A DNA stretch of 64,000 nt, from contig NZ_JAYMGZ010000001.1 in the NCBI RefSeq assembly GCF_037078405.1, positions 248,001 to 312,000 on the forward strand, in the 5' to 3' direction. Shown here piece after piece: positions 33,151 through 40,018 of the stretch; position 1 is the first letter of the stretch; each line of letters starts with the position of its first letter. Source of the DNA: Haloarcula sp. DT43. GTDB taxonomy: Archaea; Halobacteriota; Halobacteria; Halobacteriales; Haloarculaceae. The notes under the pieces are model-generated. The model ran no database searches and was not told the origin of the DNA. It worked only from the letters and a program-made list of their open reading frames with translations. The position numbers and the translations under genes are program-made.

Positions 33151-33795
33151 TCAGTCGAGAATGTCGCTGGCTTCGGTGTCGACCGCCACGTCGGTGTCGA
33201 GGTCGATGTCCTGAATGAGCGCCACCAGGTCCTCCAGTTCGGGGAACGTGTACACGGTCATCCCGAGGTCGCCGTCGTCGACGGTGATGCGCGAGTCGAC
33301 GACGAACACCAGGTCCGAGTCCGGCCAGCCACCCATCTTGTCGACGATGCCGTCGGCCGGCCCGAACACGAAGTTCGGCGTCCCCATGTCGATGGTCGTC
33401 TCCAGCACGTTGGCCCAGCCGTCGATGAACGCCGAGGTCATGATGTTGCCGATTTCCTGCATCGCCGACCGCTCCATATCGGAGAACTCCTCGCCGTCGC
33501 TCGGGTCGCCCATCCCGCCCATCATCGCGCCGGCCAGCCGCTTGCTGTCGGCCGGGTCAAGCAGGAACAGGACGTAGCCGTACGGCGGTTCGTTCAGTTC
33601 GACGTAGATGCCGACGCTCCTGTCGTCGCCGATGTGCGTTTCGACGTCTTCGATGTCGAGAAAATTAATCTGTGAGGTCCGAACCGTCGCGTCGAGCCCG
33701 GTCAACTGACCGAGGTTCTCGGCGACCGTCCCCGACCCCTCCTTTGCCATCTGATTGAAAAGGTCCAGTTTCCGCACGTCGACTTTCAAGCCCAT
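33151..33795 (-). CDS. cheC: CheC family chemotaxis protein
   Basis: 214 residues. Of the two CheC phosphatase helices, the second is intact (SDMERSAMQEIGNIMTSAF, the S/D-x3-E-x2-N pattern), while the first (LFNQMAKEGSGTVAENLG) lacks the Glu and Asn in the expected places. CheC proteins remove phosphate from CheY and, with CheD, adjust receptor adaptation; haloarchaea carry several copies. This one stands apart from a che cluster, beside nitrogen genes and the transducer at 36588. The AT-containing region 33796-33964 upstream holds no gene. Confidence 0.85.
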   Translation of the reverse strand: MGLKVDVRKLDLFNQMAKEGSGTVAENLGQLTGLDATVRTSQINFLDIEDVETHIGDDRSVGIYVELNEPPYGYVLFLLDPADSKRLAGAMMGGMGDPSDGEEFSDMERSAMQEIGNIMTSAFIDGWANVLETTIDMGTPNFVFGPADGIVDKMGGWPDSDLVFVVDSRITVDDGDLGMTVYTFPELEDLVALIQDIDLDTDVAVDTEASDILD

Positions 33796-33964: not shown

Positions 33965-34423
33965 TCAGGCGTCAGTCCCGTCGACCGGGAACTGCTCGTG
34001 TTCACAGACCGTGTTCAACACGACTGACGTCGAGGCAGAGCGGATGTCCTCGTCGGTCAGCAGCGTCTTTATCCGCTCGTTCATCGACTGCGTGTCGGTG
34101 AACTTCCCGACGGCCACGATGTCGTGGTCGCCGGTCACTTCGTAGACCGCGATCATCTCGCGGCGGTTACGTAACTGCTCCACCACCCGTCCGAGCCCGT
34201 CGCCCTCGACGGAGAGCTGGAACACGGCGGTCACGTCGTACCCCAGCGCCCCGTAATCGATGTCGACGGTGTATTCGTCGATCACACCGGTCGCCTCCAG
34301 GTCGTCCATCCGGCGCGAGACCGTGGTCGCCGCGATGCCGGTCGCCGCGGCGACGTCACGGGCGCTCGCACGGCCGTCCTGGAGCAGTGCGTTCACCACC
34401 TGCCTGTCGGTATCATCGACCAT
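33965..34423 (-). CDS. Lrp/AsnC family transcriptional regulator
   Basis: 152 residues: an N-terminal winged helix-turn-helix (DTDRQVVNALLQDGRASARD, then GIAATTVSRRMDDLE) and a RAM-type ligand-binding domain (VTAVFQLSVEGDG, EVTGDHDIVAVGKF). Starts 9 nt after the glnK stop on the same strand, so amt-glnK-lrp form one unit. It may sense an amino acid such as glutamine and control the unit itself; that is inference from position. A C-terminal CEHEQFP tail is unusual. Confidence 0.88.
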   Translation of the reverse strand: MVDDTDRQVVNALLQDGRASARDVAAATGIAATTVSRRMDDLEATGVIDEYTVDIDYGALGYDVTAVFQLSVEGDGLGRVVEQLRNRREMIAVYEVTGDHDIVAVGKFTDTQSMNERIKTLLTDEDIRSASTSVVLNTVCEHEQFPVDGTDA

Positions 34424-34432
34424 TTCGTCCGC

Positions 34433-34798
34433 TCAGACTGCCTCGGGGCCTTCTTTACCGGTCCTGACCTGGTAGGCGTTGTCCACGGGGAGGACGAATA
34501 TCTTGCCGTCTCCTTTCTCGCCGGTGTGGGCACCGTCGGCGATGGCCTCGACCACGTCGTCGGCGGGGATGTCCGCGACGACTGTCTCGACTTTGACCTT
34601 CTGGTGGAGGTCGACGACGTACTCCTCGCCGCGCCACTGCCCCTTCTTCGCGGGCTGTGAGCCGCGGCCGGAGACGTTCGTCACTGTCAGCGACGGGGCA
34701 CCGACTTCGGCGAGCGCCTTCTTCACGTCGCCCAGTTTGTCCGGTCGAACCATTGCCACTATCATCTTGATCTCGGTTTCGTCGTTTTCTTCAGTCAT
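34433..34798 (-). CDS. glnK: PII nitrogen regulatory protein
   Basis: 121 residues, PII fold. The T-loop is [14 protein letters not shown] with Tyr60, equivalent to the uridylylated Tyr51 of bacterial PII; the C-terminal loop [19 protein letters not shown] is intact. A 9-residue acidic extension precedes the canonical start of the fold. It binds ATP/ADP and 2-oxoglutarate and regulates Amt and often glutamine synthetase. Its start overlaps the amt stop by 8 nt, the near-universal amt-glnK pairing. Confidence 0.95.
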
Positions 34799-36122
34799 CG
34801 CTGGAACCTCCGTCAGTCCGCACGTCCGTGCTCACTTCGCCACCGTCGGCGACGACGCTCTCGCCGCCACCGAACTCGGGGTAGGTCTCGACGCCGTGCT
34901 CGCTGACGTCCAGCCCTTCCTGTTCGTGTTCGGGCGTGACCCGAGCCTCGCCCATGGCCTTCAGAGCGTACCAGATGATCCCGGTCGTAACGACGGTCCA
35001 GACCGTGATAACGGCGACGCCGACTACCTGCGAGATGAACGCGGTCACGACCGAGCCGACCGAACCGGACGTGGCGACGAACGGGAACAGCAGGGTGCCG
35101 AGTACGCCGGCGCTCCCGTGGACCGGGAAGACGGCACAGACGTCGTCGATCTTCAGGCGCTTCTCGACGAAGCCGAAGACGACGGGGAGCTGTGCGCCGG
35201 CGAGGCCGCCGACCACGAACGCGCCCCACCAAGTGGTGGTGTCCGGGATGGCCGTGATGCCGACCAGGCCGGCCAGCAGGCCGTTCGCGACGTAGAGCGT
35301 GTCGACTTTGCCGGTCTTCGCCCACGCGGCGAGTCCAGCGCCCATCGCACCACACGCCATCGCGATGGTCGTCGTCATGGCGACGCGGCCGACGTAGCTG
35401 AACGCACCGAGCGCGAGCGTCCCTTCCTCGGTCACCGTGAACACGGACGCGGCGGTGCCGACGTTGAAGCCGTACCAGCCGAACGCGAGGATGAGCGTCC
35501 CGAGCACGGCGAAGGTCAGGGAGTGGCCCGGAATGACGTTCGCGGAGCCGTCTTCGTTGTACCGACCCATGCGCGGACCGAGGACGTACGCCGCGGTCAG
35601 GCCGGCGATACCGCCCATGCCGTGAACGATCATGCCGCCCGCGAAGTCCTTGAACACCGCGCCACCGAAGCTGAGGTGCGATCCGGCCCACGTGAGACCG
35701 GTGACGACCGGGTAGATGACCGCGGCCAGCAGGATCGTGTACGTGATGTACGCGCGGAGTTTCGCGCGACCGGCCACCGCGCCGGAGACGATCGTCGCCG
35801 CCGTCATCGCGAAGACGGCGCCGAACAGCCACCCGACGTAGTCGTTGGCCGCCGACGCCCCAAAGGCGGGGGCGAAGGAGCCGGAGCCGACCAGGGAGCT
35901 GATGCCCGACCCGATGAGGAAGAACACCGTCACCCCGACCGACCAGGTCAGGAGGTTCTTCGTCAGCTGGTTCGCGACGTTCTTCGAACGCACCTGGCCC
36001 GCTTCGAGCATGGCGAAGCCCGCGTGCATGAAGAAAATCAGGAACGATACCACCAGTACCCACAGTAGGTTAACCCCCTCTGCGAGTACGCTTGGGTCCA
36101 CCTGTAGTGCTGTGTAGCTCAT
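34791..36122 (-). CDS. amt: Ammonium transporter
   Basis: 443 residues with about 11 membrane helices. Conserved Amt motifs include [19 protein letters not shown] near the N-terminus, [20 protein letters not shown] (contains the first pore His), and [14 protein letters not shown] (second pore His). The C-terminal tail ([20 protein letters not shown]) is the region gated by GlnK. First gene of amt-glnK-lrp. A Shine-Dalgarno site (AGGTG, minus strand of 36131-36135) precedes the ATG. Confidence 0.96.
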
Positions 36123-36587
36123 TTCTAGTTCACCTGTTTCGTTTTCTTATCTGCAGGCGTCTGCATGTCCAACTTTGCCCCACTCTTGCTCAACTTCTTC
36201 AACTCTTTCACGAGAAATGGTCTGGTAACACCACTACATAAGGTTTGCCTTTATGAATGCGGAAATTGGAGGGGATGCGGTAGACGACCGTCCAGATTAT
36301 GGTATGATATTATGGATATAAGGTTGTTCTCCGTCAAGAAAGTCCGTATATGCACACTGGAATTCTGGACGTTTGTCGACCCCAGTTCCGGCCTGAGGCG
36401 GCCAAATAGGCCGTTTTCGCTTGCGCGCGCCGTCTGGCCGGCGGGTGTTGCCAGCGACAACAGGATTATAGTTCGGGGCGATAGATTCGGATTCAGCATA
36501 AATGGTCGGACAAGAGTGGGGATTTGTTGCACAGTGTCTCGACACGGTGGACGATTCGACGGTCTTCCGGGAGGGACGTTGCTGAGT
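36123..36587. other. Gene-free divergent regulatory region between amt and the transducer gene
   Basis: 465 bases without a convincing gene; A/T-rich around 36225-36350 and 36460-36500. It should hold the amt promoter (a TATA-like ACTACATAAGG near 36231-36241, read leftward as CCTTATGTAGT) and the transducer promoter. A 14-base near-perfect palindrome is at 36152-36165, in the likely amt leader. Confidence 0.6.
36131..36135 (-). promoter_or_regulatory. Shine-Dalgarno site of amt
   Basis: Minus-strand AGGTG, 8 bases before the ATG at 36122; indicates a leadered transcript. Confidence 0.5.
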
Positions 36588-38198
36588 ATGGCTTCGGACC
36601 ACCACCCGTCCGTTCCGGACCAGTCGACGGCCGTGACAGAGGAGCGGGCCGTCGCGAACGCACAGGGCGCGCTGGATGTCGTGCAGGCGGCCTCGGAGAC
36701 CGTCGGCGAGCAGCTCGCAGCCATCGACGACCGCGCGACGGCACAGGCGTCCGACGCCCAGTGGATCGCCGACGAGGTCTCGTCGCTCTCGGCCACAATC
36801 GAGGAAATCGCCGCGACCGCGACCGAAGTCAGCGACCAGAGCCAGCGGGCGACGGACGCGGCGAACGACGGCCGAGAGGCCGCGGCCGACGCAATCGACT
36901 CGATGGACGAGGTCCGCGAGCTGGGCCAGGCAGTCGCCGAGGAGGTGGCCGCTCTCCAGGACCGGGTCGACCGCATCGCGGACGCGCTGGCCGGCATCGA
37001 CCGCATCGCCGACCAGACGAACATGCTCGCGCTGAACGCCTCCATCGAGGCCGCGCGGGCGGGCGACACCACTGACACGGACGGGTTCGCCGTCGTCGCC
37101 GACGAAATCAAGGGCCTCGCCGAGGAGTCCCAGCAGCAGGCCGAGGAAATCGACACGACGCTTGCGGCGGTGCGCGACGCCACGGACGACACCGTCGAAC
37201 AGCTCGACGCGGCCATCGACGGCATCGACGCCGGGGCCGAGCAGGTCACCACGGCGATGGCGCGCCTCGACGACGTGGCCGACACCGTCGCGGAGACGGC
37301 CGACGGCATCGCGTCCGTCTCGGCGGCGACCGACGAGCAGGCGACGACGAGCGAAGCGGTCGCCCAGCGGTGTGAGACCGTCTCGGACCGCGCCGCCGCC
37401 ATCGAGGACGACCTCTCGGAGATACGCGCCGCCCGCGCCGAACAGACCGCCATGCTCGACGAAATCGAGGGCGTGCTCGCCGCCGCCGAGGCCGACCGGC
37501 AGGACCGACTGGCGGACGCGCCGACGGTCCCGACCGGCATCGACGGTCTCGACGACCTCTGTGGCGGCGGACTCGTCATGGGTGGCCAGGCCGTGATTCG
37601 GTACGCCGACGGGGCGGCTGTCGACGGTACCGTCGCCCAGCTGTGTGCGACCGCCGTCGCCGCCGACCGGGCGGTCTCGCTGACGCCGCCCCCCTCCCTG
37701 GACCGGTCGACGCTGGCCGCCGCGTTCGCGGCCACCGACCGCTCGCTCGATGACGCACTGGCGGACGACGACCTGTTCGTCCTGGACCCGTTCGGGCACT
37801 GGGACGCCGGGTACAACGTGTTCGACCTCGAACGGACGTCCCTCGCCGACGCCAACGAGACGACGGCCGCCAGGCGGGACGCCCCGCTGGTCATCGTGGG
37901 CAACATCCAGGGGGAGATTCGGATGATGGGCGAACAGGCCGCCAGGGAGGCGAGATACGAGAACGACGACGGCGTCTTCGAACCCCGTGACACCGTGGTC
38001 AACGTCATCAACGACGACGCGGTCCCGGCGACACTCGCGGCGTTTTACTCCGGCGCGGCCGACCAGGAACTCGCGCTGTCCCGGACCGACGGCCGCGAGT
38101 CCCTGACCCTCGCCGCCTCGCCGCGCGGCACCGTCGGTGAGACACGGCCGGTATCGCACCTGTCGGGGCCGCCCTTCCTCCGCGTCCGAGACGACTGA
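36588..38198 (+). CDS. Soluble chemotaxis-type transducer fused to a degenerate KaiC/RecA-like domain
   Basis: 536 residues without a membrane helix. Residues ~60-310 are a methyl-accepting chemotaxis signalling domain: long heptad coiled coil with the hairpin tip DRIADQTNMLALNASIEAAR and GFAVVADEIKGLAEES. Residues ~315-520 begin with PTGIDGLDDLCGGGLVMGGQ, as in KaiC-type ATPases (GxxxLDxLLGGGL), but the Walker A that should follow reads AVIRYADG, with no GKT. APLVIVGNIQGEIR is the Walker B-like strand. It would signal to CheA/CheW from the cytoplasm. Coupled by TGATG to the kinase that follows. In-frame ATG further upstream is rejected because composition changes there. Confidence 0.85.
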   Translation: MASDHHPSVPDQSTAVTEERAVANAQGALDVVQAASETVGEQLAAIDDRATAQASDAQWIADEVSSLSATIEEIAATATEVSDQSQRATDAANDGREAAADAIDSMDEVRELGQAVAEEVAALQDRVDRIADALAGIDRIADQTNMLALNASIEAARAGDTTDTDGFAVVADEIKGLAEESQQQAEEIDTTLAAVRDATDDTVEQLDAAIDGIDAGAEQVTTAMARLDDVADTVAETADGIASVSAATDEQATTSEAVAQRCETVSDRAAAIEDDLSEIRAARAEQTAMLDEIEGVLAAAEADRQDRLADAPTVPTGIDGLDDLCGGGLVMGGQAVIRYADGAAVDGTVAQLCATAVAADRAVSLTPPPSLDRSTLAAAFAATDRSLDDALADDDLFVLDPFGHWDAGYNVFDLERTSLADANETTAARRDAPLVIVGNIQGEIRMMGEQAAREARYENDDGVFEPRDTVVNVINDDAVPATLAAFYSGAADQELALSRTDGRESLTLAASPRGTVGETRPVSHLSGPPFLRVRDD

Positions 38199-39535
38199 TG
38201 TTCGGCATCGACGACACTGGTCGGTTCACGTTCGCGACGGACGAGTTTGCCGCGCTGCTGGACCGGACGCCCGACGACCTGGTCGGCACGCCCGCCGCGG
38301 CGGTGGTCGCACCCGAAGACCGCGAGACGCTGGCCGCGGCCAGAGCGGCCGTCGGCGACGCGTCCGACCGGGTGACTCGAACCTGTCATGTCACGCTCCC
38401 GCAAAGCGACCTCCCCGGTCCGGCGACGATAGAGCTCGCGACCGCGGGAGACGGGGGCGTCGTCGGCTCGCTCTGTCGCGCGGCCGAGGCGTCCGACCCG
38501 TTCCGGTACCTGTTCGACCTCATCCAAGACGCGGCCGTCGGCTTCGAAATCGTCAATTACGTCCCGATTGTGCGCACGGTCAACCCCTCGTTCGTCGAAA
38601 CCTTCGGATACGACCGCGAGACCATCGTCGGCGAACCGCTCAACGACTACATCGTCCCCGGCGACCGCGTCGAGGAGGCGGTCAACTACGACCAGCGGAC
38701 CGCCGCCGGCGACATCAACTACGCCGTCGTCTCGCGGAAGACGGCCGACGGCTGCCGTGAGTTCATCTACCGCGGAGTCCCGTACGACACGGCCGACGGC
38801 CGGCGCTGCGGGTTCGCGATGTACACGGACGTGACCGACAGCAGGCGGCAAAAGCGGCGGCTCCGCGTGCTCCACCGCGTCCTGCGGCACAACCTCCGCA
38901 ACGAACTCTCCGTCGTGTTCGGGATGTCCGAGTACGTCCGTGCGAACGCGGCCGAGTCGGCCGTCTCGCTGGCCGCGTCCCGCGCTCTCGACGCGGCCGA
39001 CCGCCTCGCCGCCGTCAGCGAGAAGGCCCGCAACGTCGAGACCGCGCTCGACGGCGACACCAGCCAGTCGGTCGACGCCGCGGCTATCTCCCGGTCCGTC
39101 GCCGACTGCTACCCCGACGCGGCGGTCGAGACGGCCCTGCCGGAGACGCTCCCGGTCACCGGCGGGACGGCCGTCTACGACGCCGTCGACAACCTCGTCG
39201 AGAACGCGCTCGAACACACGCCCGACGGGACGACCGTCCGCATCGTGGCCGAGCGGGCCGACCAGGACGCGTTCGTCCGTGTTCTCGACGACGGCCCCGG
39301 CATCCCGGCCGTCGAACGGGCCGTCGTCTTCGACGACGAGGACATCACCAACCTCCAGCACGGGAGCGGGCTCGGCATCTGGCTCGCCCGGTGGGTCGCC
39401 GAGGCGGCCGGCGGCGGCATCGAGTACGAGCGGACCGACGGGTGGACGACCGTCTCGCTCAGACTTCCGGTCTCCGACGCCGACGACGTGCTCACGCTGG
39501 CCGACGCCATCGGTACCGAACCGACGCGGCGGTGA
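38198..39535 (+). CDS. PAS domain sensor histidine kinase
   Basis: 445 residues, soluble. A divergent PAS-like stretch (residues ~1-95) precedes a PAS domain (about 105-220: FDLIQDAAVGFEIVNYVPIV, FETFGYDRETIVG). The H-box is RVLRHNLRNELSVV with His about 231, of the HNLRN type common in haloarchaea. The ATPase domain has NLVENALEHTP, DDGPGIP and GSGLGIWLARWVAEA. It shares a 1-nt overlap with the transducer gene, so both are made together. No response regulator is adjacent. It converges with the DUF7519-type gene, stops directly adjacent. Confidence 0.92.
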   Translation: MFGIDDTGRFTFATDEFAALLDRTPDDLVGTPAAAVVAPEDRETLAAARAAVGDASDRVTRTCHVTLPQSDLPGPATIELATAGDGGVVGSLCRAAEASDPFRYLFDLIQDAAVGFEIVNYVPIVRTVNPSFVETFGYDRETIVGEPLNDYIVPGDRVEEAVNYDQRTAAGDINYAVVSRKTADGCREFIYRGVPYDTADGRRCGFAMYTDVTDSRRQKRRLRVLHRVLRHNLRNELSVVFGMSEYVRANAAESAVSLAASRALDAADRLAAVSEKARNVETALDGDTSQSVDAAAISRSVADCYPDAAVETALPETLPVTGGTAVYDAVDNLVENALEHTPDGTTVRIVAERADQDAFVRVLDDGPGIPAVERAVVFDDEDITNLQHGSGLGIWLARWVAEAAGGGIEYERTDGWTTVSLRLPVSDADDVLTLADAIGTEPTRR

Positions 39536-40018
39536 CTACCGCCTGAGCGCCGCGGTCAGTGCGATTGCGCCCAGCACGACGCTTGCGAGCGCCAGCGGCG
39601 ACAGCGCCGGGACGTCCAGCTGAAACAGCAGGGTCGTCACGACGACGCTGCCCCCGACCAGCCCCGTCGTCCCCGCGACGTGTGCCAACTCGACGGGCGT
39701 CCCGGGCGCTGTCCCCAGGTCCGCGTAGAGGTCGATGGCCGCGTGTGCGAACGTCCAGGCCAGCACCGTCGCGCCGCCGGCGACCAGCACCGTCGTCGTC
39801 GTTGCTCCCTGGAGCCCGGCCACCAGTAGCGCCAGGAACAGCGCCGCGCTGGCGAGGTCCACCAGCCGGCCGGACTGCACCAGCTGCCCGCCGGCGAGCA
39901 ACACCACGCCGACGAGGGCGGCGGCCGTCGAGGCGGCGCTGATACCGGCGGTAAACAGCGTCACGACCCCCGCCGCAAGCGCCGCGCCGCCACAGACGAG
40001 CCCGGTTCGGGTCGTCAT
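39536..40018 (-). CDS. Small haloarchaeal membrane protein of the DUF58/DUF4129 operon
   Basis: 160 residues, nearly all hydrophobic, with about five helices and a short R-rich end. I recall such proteins as DUF7519-like, last gene of haloarchaeal DUF58 operons, but the name is from memory. It overlaps the DUF58 gene by 4 nt (start at 40018, DUF58 stop at 40015). Function unknown. Confidence 0.7.
   Translation of the reverse strand: MTTRTGLVCGGAALAAGVVTLFTAGISAASTAAALVGVVLLAGGQLVQSGRLVDLASAALFLALLVAGLQGATTTTVLVAGGATVLAWTFAHAAIDLYADLGTAPGTPVELAHVAGTTGLVGGSVVVTTLLFQLDVPALSPLALASVVLGAIALTAALRR

Follow-up and report, generated by a model that had tools for sequence, protein, structure and literature searches.

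KaiC-like proteins have reportedly been proposed as signalling hubs of the archaea, with little known of their mechanism. Fusions of inactivated KaiC domains with two-component proteins have been described: the iKaiC, MEDS and DUF835 domains of archaeal two-component proteins are joined to REC, HK or HalOD1 domains, and MEDS, which is known to serve archaeal kinases as a sensor domain, is itself listed as an inactivated KaiC (PMC5847659). The best known pairing of a KaiC fold with a histidine kinase is that of the cyanobacteria, where KaiC is an ATPase/kinase ring and SasA binds it through a thioredoxin-like domain; the complex of SasA with the KaiC CI ring is, going by its title, a solved structure (6x61). 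Among the chemoreceptors, TlpD is fully cytosolic and has an established C-terminal input, a zinc-binding helical bundle (CZB) that follows a soluble MCP hairpin, and it carries in addition an N-terminal PAS domain (PMC12871147). The soluble haloarchaeal transducers Car/Htr11, Htr13 and Htr15 of Halobacterium salinarum bind CheW2 more than CheW1, and Htr15 (OE2392R/VNG0958G), which shows this preference, is without transmembrane helices (PMC3579733). A full-text literature search returned no description of a chemoreceptor with an iKaiC domain, a weak negative, since the 2017 survey of KaiC hubs by Makarova, Galperin and Koonin (mBio) lay outside the search.

The locus described here lies in a window of 64,000 nucleotides from Haloarcula sp. 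DT43 (Table 1). It encodes a soluble transducer of the same general kind as the haloarchaeal ones above. Like TlpD, the transducer has an MCP hairpin followed by a C-terminal domain, but this domain has the KaiC fold and is not a zinc-binding bundle. As in the cyanobacterial system, a KaiC fold is paired with a histidine kinase; here, however, the KaiC fold has lost its P-loop and sits on a chemoreceptor, and the kinase has PAS domains in place of the thioredoxin-like domain of SasA.

Table 1. Features of the transducer-kinase locus and its neighbourhood (positions in the window)
Feature	Position	Strand	Details and basis
Soluble transducer, MCP signalling hairpin with C-terminal iKaiC (inactivated KaiC-like) domain	36588..38198	+	536 aa; Pfam, profile, AlphaFold
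Two long antiparallel helices, residues 12-157 and 165-308	36621..37511	+	~145 residues each; AF2 full-length model
MCPsignal match, residues 82-266	36831-37385	+	Pfam, E 3.2e-35
Hairpin-tip motif NMLALNASIEAARA, residues 145-158	within 36621..37511	+	conserved tip
iKaiC domain, residues 310-536, KaiC/RecA fold, Walker A lost	37515..38195	+	profile, AF2, Foldseek, VIA-align, alignment
Stop/start overlap TGATG, 1 nt in common	38196..38201	+	sequence
Cytosolic PAS-PAS histidine kinase without receiver domain	38198..39535	+	445 aa; translation, Pfam
Kinase H-box region VLHRVLRHNLRNELSVV	38856..38910	+	read from translation
HATPase_c of kinase, residues 325-425	39170..39472	+	Pfam, E 1.4e-16
Transducer-kinase module, replaced by ~35 bp in G055 and G083	36431..39539	.	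syntenic locus alignment
amt (ammonium transporter), neighbouring divergent gene, not counted with the system	34791..36122	-	Pfam, E 4.8e-97
glnK	34433-34798	-	Pfam
lrp	33965-34423	-	Pfam
cheC-like gene	33151-33795	-	Pfam
Strongly conserved non-coding block between amt and transducer	36228..36345	.	conservation

The reading frame of the transducer ends with a stop codon at 38196-38198. An in-frame ATG further upstream, at 36165, which would give a protein of 677 aa, was rejected as the start since it is not conserved among relatives; the frames of the relatives open near 36588, which is therefore the likely start. The receptor half belongs to the methyl-accepting chemotaxis proteins by its MCPsignal domain (PF00015), which scores 121.9 bits against a curated cut-off of 34.6, and by the conserved tip of its hairpin, in which N145 and L147-I153 are invariant in both clades of the fusion alignment. 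In the full-length AlphaFold model (25 sequences; mean pLDDT 78, with most block means of the C-terminal domain above 80), the second helix runs directly into the compact iKaiC domain, and no N-terminal sensor domain is present in the model. The C-terminal domain is therefore the only candidate for the input. The host genome contains 13 MCP matches over the cut-off together with genes for CheA, CheB, CheR and CheW. Two other loci of this genome have a CheW gene immediately in front of a KaiC-family gene (L119, G000:C1:613034-614210; L118, 1864-3803 of G000:C3); at the latter, the CheW frame, a short one of 112 aa, and the KaiC frame overlap.

The iKaiC domain begins at VPTGIDGLDDLCGGGL, at about residue 310, and GKT/GKS is absent from it. 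Taken as a single sequence, it matches KaiC weakly (10.9 bits with Pfam PF06745, for which the cut-off is 26.6; E 5e-4 with KaiC of the PDB). The profile of its family of 38 sequences finds KaiC of the PDB with an E value of 5e-16, and the domain is modelled with high confidence (pLDDT 95.1, pTM 0.92). The structures nearest to the model are KaiC and archaeal KaiC-like proteins (Foldseek, E 4e-12 for KaiC), and VIA-align superimposes it on KaiC with Z of 19-21 over about 200 residues at 11-16% identity. The family profile and the predicted fold together rule out a chance KaiC-like motif. The Walker A pattern [GA]xxxxGK[ST] is absent from all 22 transducer fusions examined. The C-terminal domain of the transducer is thus a KaiC-fold domain that lost its P-loop: by fold and profile relation it is a member of the KaiC superfamily, without the Walker A P-loop that marks the active KaiC ATPases of PF06745 and, being a single degenerate domain, without the two P-loop ATPase domains and the active double ring of the circadian clock KaiC. 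With MEDS (PF14417), the domain of the window is below the cut-off and gives no match, eight of the 38 family members match weakly, and one homologous domain, the second domain of a two-domain KaiC relative (L069), is above the cut-off (37.8 against 29.8 bits). The initial annotation had recognised a transducer with a KaiC-like domain devoid of GKT, had taken this altered nucleotide-binding domain for the likely input, and had proposed a profile search and structure prediction as a check; both confirm the KaiC relation, and the architecture of the receptor supports the proposed input.

The nearest relatives of iKaiC outside the transducers are haloarchaeal two-domain KaiC proteins of about 500 residues. 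Their first domain retains the P-loop in 17 of 17 cases. Their second domain is degenerate and can be aligned over its whole length to the transducer iKaiC, at about 30% identity (profile E 8e-42), whereas the first domain aligns over 30 columns only. The two kinds of protein differ in that iKaiC stands on the chemoreceptor alone, with no active KaiC domain at its side. Because the match is to the degenerate domain, iKaiC most likely came from a KaiC domain that was already dead and did not die on the receptor. Two-domain proteins of this kind, in which a live domain is joined to a dead one (L053-L069), are found widely among haloarchaea.

The iKaiC domain of the window is 85-87% identical to that of its Haloarcula relatives, and dN/dS against other Haloarcula is 0.16-0.36. 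About 30 of its residues are invariant across both deep clades of fusions, among them D400, W405, N410, N423, R430, E443, G448-E449, R453, N459-D460, D468, N472, F486-Y487 and A490-A491-D492, whereas R456 and F412 are specific to one clade (clade A below). Judged from these sequences, iKaiC is under purifying selection and is maintained, not decaying, because dN/dS is low and the same residues are fixed in both clades. In one clade the C-terminal tail of iKaiC is lost. The transducer of Halovenus carboxidivorans (L081/L039) has an in-frame TAG within iKaiC after LLVGGQSVI, and is a pseudogene, a sequencing error or a truncated receptor.

The kinase gene follows the transducer without a gap, its ATG using the A of the transducer TGA stop, an overlap that suggests translational coupling of the two. 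Two PAS regions and a HATPase_c domain (61.3 bits, Pfam) are present, and the H-box RHNLRNELSVV, the N-box NLVENALEH and the G-boxes are intact as read from the translation, which makes the product a two-component histidine kinase. Pfam finds no receiver in the protein, and no response regulator was recognised among the immediate neighbours.

The search for the domain in 242 Halobacteria genomes (E <= 0.001) found it in 56. The matches that were opened fall into transducer fusions, at the higher identities, and two-domain KaiC proteins, at about 30% identity. Among the families with fusions are Haloarculaceae, Haloferacaceae and Natrialbaceae. Placed in a tree, 43 fusions divide into clade A, with 27 members, and clade B, with 16, the latter from Halorubrum, Halonotius, Natrialbaceae and their kin. 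Transducers of Halobellus, Haloferax and the f2 family branch among those of the Haloarculaceae, which suggests that the transducer module was moved horizontally between lineages; the plasmid records searched gave no match.

The kinase adjoins the transducer in 25 of the 27 members of clade A and in none of the 16 of clade B. In clade A the overlap takes the 1-nt form TGATG in Haloarcula and Haloferax and the 4-nt form ATGA in Halorientalis, Salinibaculum and Halorhabdus. The kinase is convergent at one locus of this clade (L041) and divergent at two (L034/L035), where it is adjacent but 44-46% identical and of uncertain orthology. In two Haloarcula genomes (G055 and G083) the transducer is absent, there is no close match to the kinase, and the flanks of the short replacement align at 85-91%. 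Since both genes are missing there as one clean 3.1-kb stretch, transducer and kinase behave as one module. On gene content and order, the PAS kinase is a real partner of the transducer. Kinases of the same subfamily also occur without the transducer (Haloferax L122-L125, G165 and G198), including four other Haloferax-type genomes with the kinase at the same locus, so that the kinase has a function independent of the transducer. Conversely, 16 of the 43 transducers are without an adjacent kinase, which is therefore not required by every iKaiC receptor. The hisC-kinase-tpiA locus of Haloferax, found with the transducer (L037/L038) and without it (L122-L125), offers a natural comparison of presence and absence. 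The 1-nt overlap with a PAS histidine kinase and the link between chemoreceptor and kinase, both claimed in the initial annotation, are borne out by the adjacency in clade A, by the overlaps in several genera and by the joint absence. One correction is that the arrangement is not a one-off, given the several families in which the fusions occur.

On the other side of the transducer, the divergent amt-glnK-lrp and the cheC gene beyond them are as first annotated, all on the minus strand and assigned by Pfam. Adjacency to amt-glnK is confined to the Haloarculaceae, to loci of Haloarcula, Halomicroarcula, Halosimplex, Halovenus and Salinibaculum, and most of these also keep hemB as the neighbour on the far side. 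This retention of hemB explains the adjacency as an old gene order that the loci share. Haloferax, Halorientalis and Halorhabdus carry the transducer-kinase pair at a distance from amt, and amt-glnK-lrp-cheC is intact in genomes from which the pair is missing. The neighbourhood survey of homologues thus upheld one half of the proposed association, the kinase, in one of the two clades; the association with nitrogen genes mostly did not hold, and a specific coupling to nitrogen is not supported. The conserved intergenic block includes CACTACATAAGGTTTGCCTTTAT as well as GGTAGACGACCGTCCA...TATGATATTATGGATATAAGGTTGTTCTCCGTCAAGAAA, which show near identity across nine Haloarcula-type genomes; a search of the block against Rfam gave no match. 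It was rejected as a promoter of the transducer or an RNA. Because it is retained where the transducer is missing, it belongs most likely to amt and is probably its regulatory region. At two Halosimplex loci (L036 and L078) and at L128 of G198, two successive amt-glnK units lie beside the module, and one amt of each pair is only about 50% identical to that of the window.

The reading that we prefer, with about even confidence, is that of a cytoplasmic chemoreceptor with a pseudo-KaiC input or docking domain, which forms a pair with a PAS histidine kinase dedicated to it. Through its MCP hairpin the receptor would enter the common CheW/CheA arrays. From its place at the hairpin base, where the second helix ends, iKaiC would be positioned to push on the signalling helices. 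As it is unable to use ATP in the way of KaiC, it would serve for binding, and whether it is occupied or empty would set the output of the receptor and, we infer, its control of CheA. The kinase, made from the same coupled message, would most likely dock on iKaiC, by analogy with SasA on the CI ring of KaiC. The signal might then flow from the state sensed by the PAS domains to taxis, or one cytoplasmic signal might serve taxis and a two-component output alike. The best candidate partner in clade A would be the dedicated kinase; in clade B another ligand or partner would have to serve. A more specific form of the proposal, in which the pseudo-KaiC is a physical plug by which the PAS histidine kinase enters the array of chemoreceptors, the docking of a kinase on KaiC as in the cyanobacterial clock being reused in archaea to steer swimming, is put forward tentatively, as rather doubtful.

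Less probable than the preferred reading, and still to be taken seriously, is a domain that binds a small cytoplasmic ligand directly, in the manner proposed for domains of the MEDS/DcmR type, and reports it to CheA; the kinase would be only co-expressed and would answer the same stimulus by its own transcriptional branch. The MEDS matches of the family and of the one homologous domain over the cut-off agree with this, as do the invariant polar residues (D400, N410, N423, R430, E443, E449, R453, N459, D460, D468 and N472), which the kinase-free clade of 16 receptors keeps along with iKaiC. The gene overlap and the joint absence with the kinase in clade A imply a cooperation closer than that of parallel branches. 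We think it quite unlikely that iKaiC has an active member of the KaiC family, such as CirA or a two-domain KaiC, as its docking partner and so couples cell-state or clock-like signalling to taxis. Such docking would fit the homology of iKaiC to the second domain of the two-domain proteins, and KaiC domains are known to assemble with one another. The CheW genes upstream of KaiC-family genes in the host genome point the same way, as does the altered motility of Haloferax volcanii on deletion of cirA (hypermotile) or cirD (non-motile) (PMC13286277). Against it, the host genome holds no relative of iKaiC besides the transducer itself at E <= 10.

A nitrogen role of the transducer-kinase pair is possible from gene position. 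That the transducer is a sensor for nitrogen or energy taxis acting with Amt-GlnK is nonetheless very unlikely: the divergent amt-glnK of the five Haloarculaceae genera and the kinase that remains beside amt-glnK in G198 although the transducer is missing would favour it, but the retained hemB accounts for the adjacency by ancestral gene order, other genera carry the pair elsewhere, and the amt locus stands intact without the pair. Moreover, the universal loss of Walker A from the fusions makes energy-state sensing by KaiC-type ATP binding, as first suggested, unlikely. Least probable, and by our estimate very nearly negligible, is a functionless iKaiC, a decaying remnant on a transducer that signals without it. 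The loss of Walker A, the in-frame TAG of Halovenus carboxidivorans and the tail lost in one clade could be read in this way, but they are set against the low dN/dS, the residues fixed over two deep clades and a confidently predicted full fold.

Many haloarchaeal transducers are still without an assigned signal. A receptor with a dead KaiC domain as its only candidate input, together with its kinase, would allow a direct assay, through CheA activity or swimming, of what an inactivated KaiC binds. The group that carries the pair is genetically tractable, and some Haloferax species have both the transducer and the kinase.
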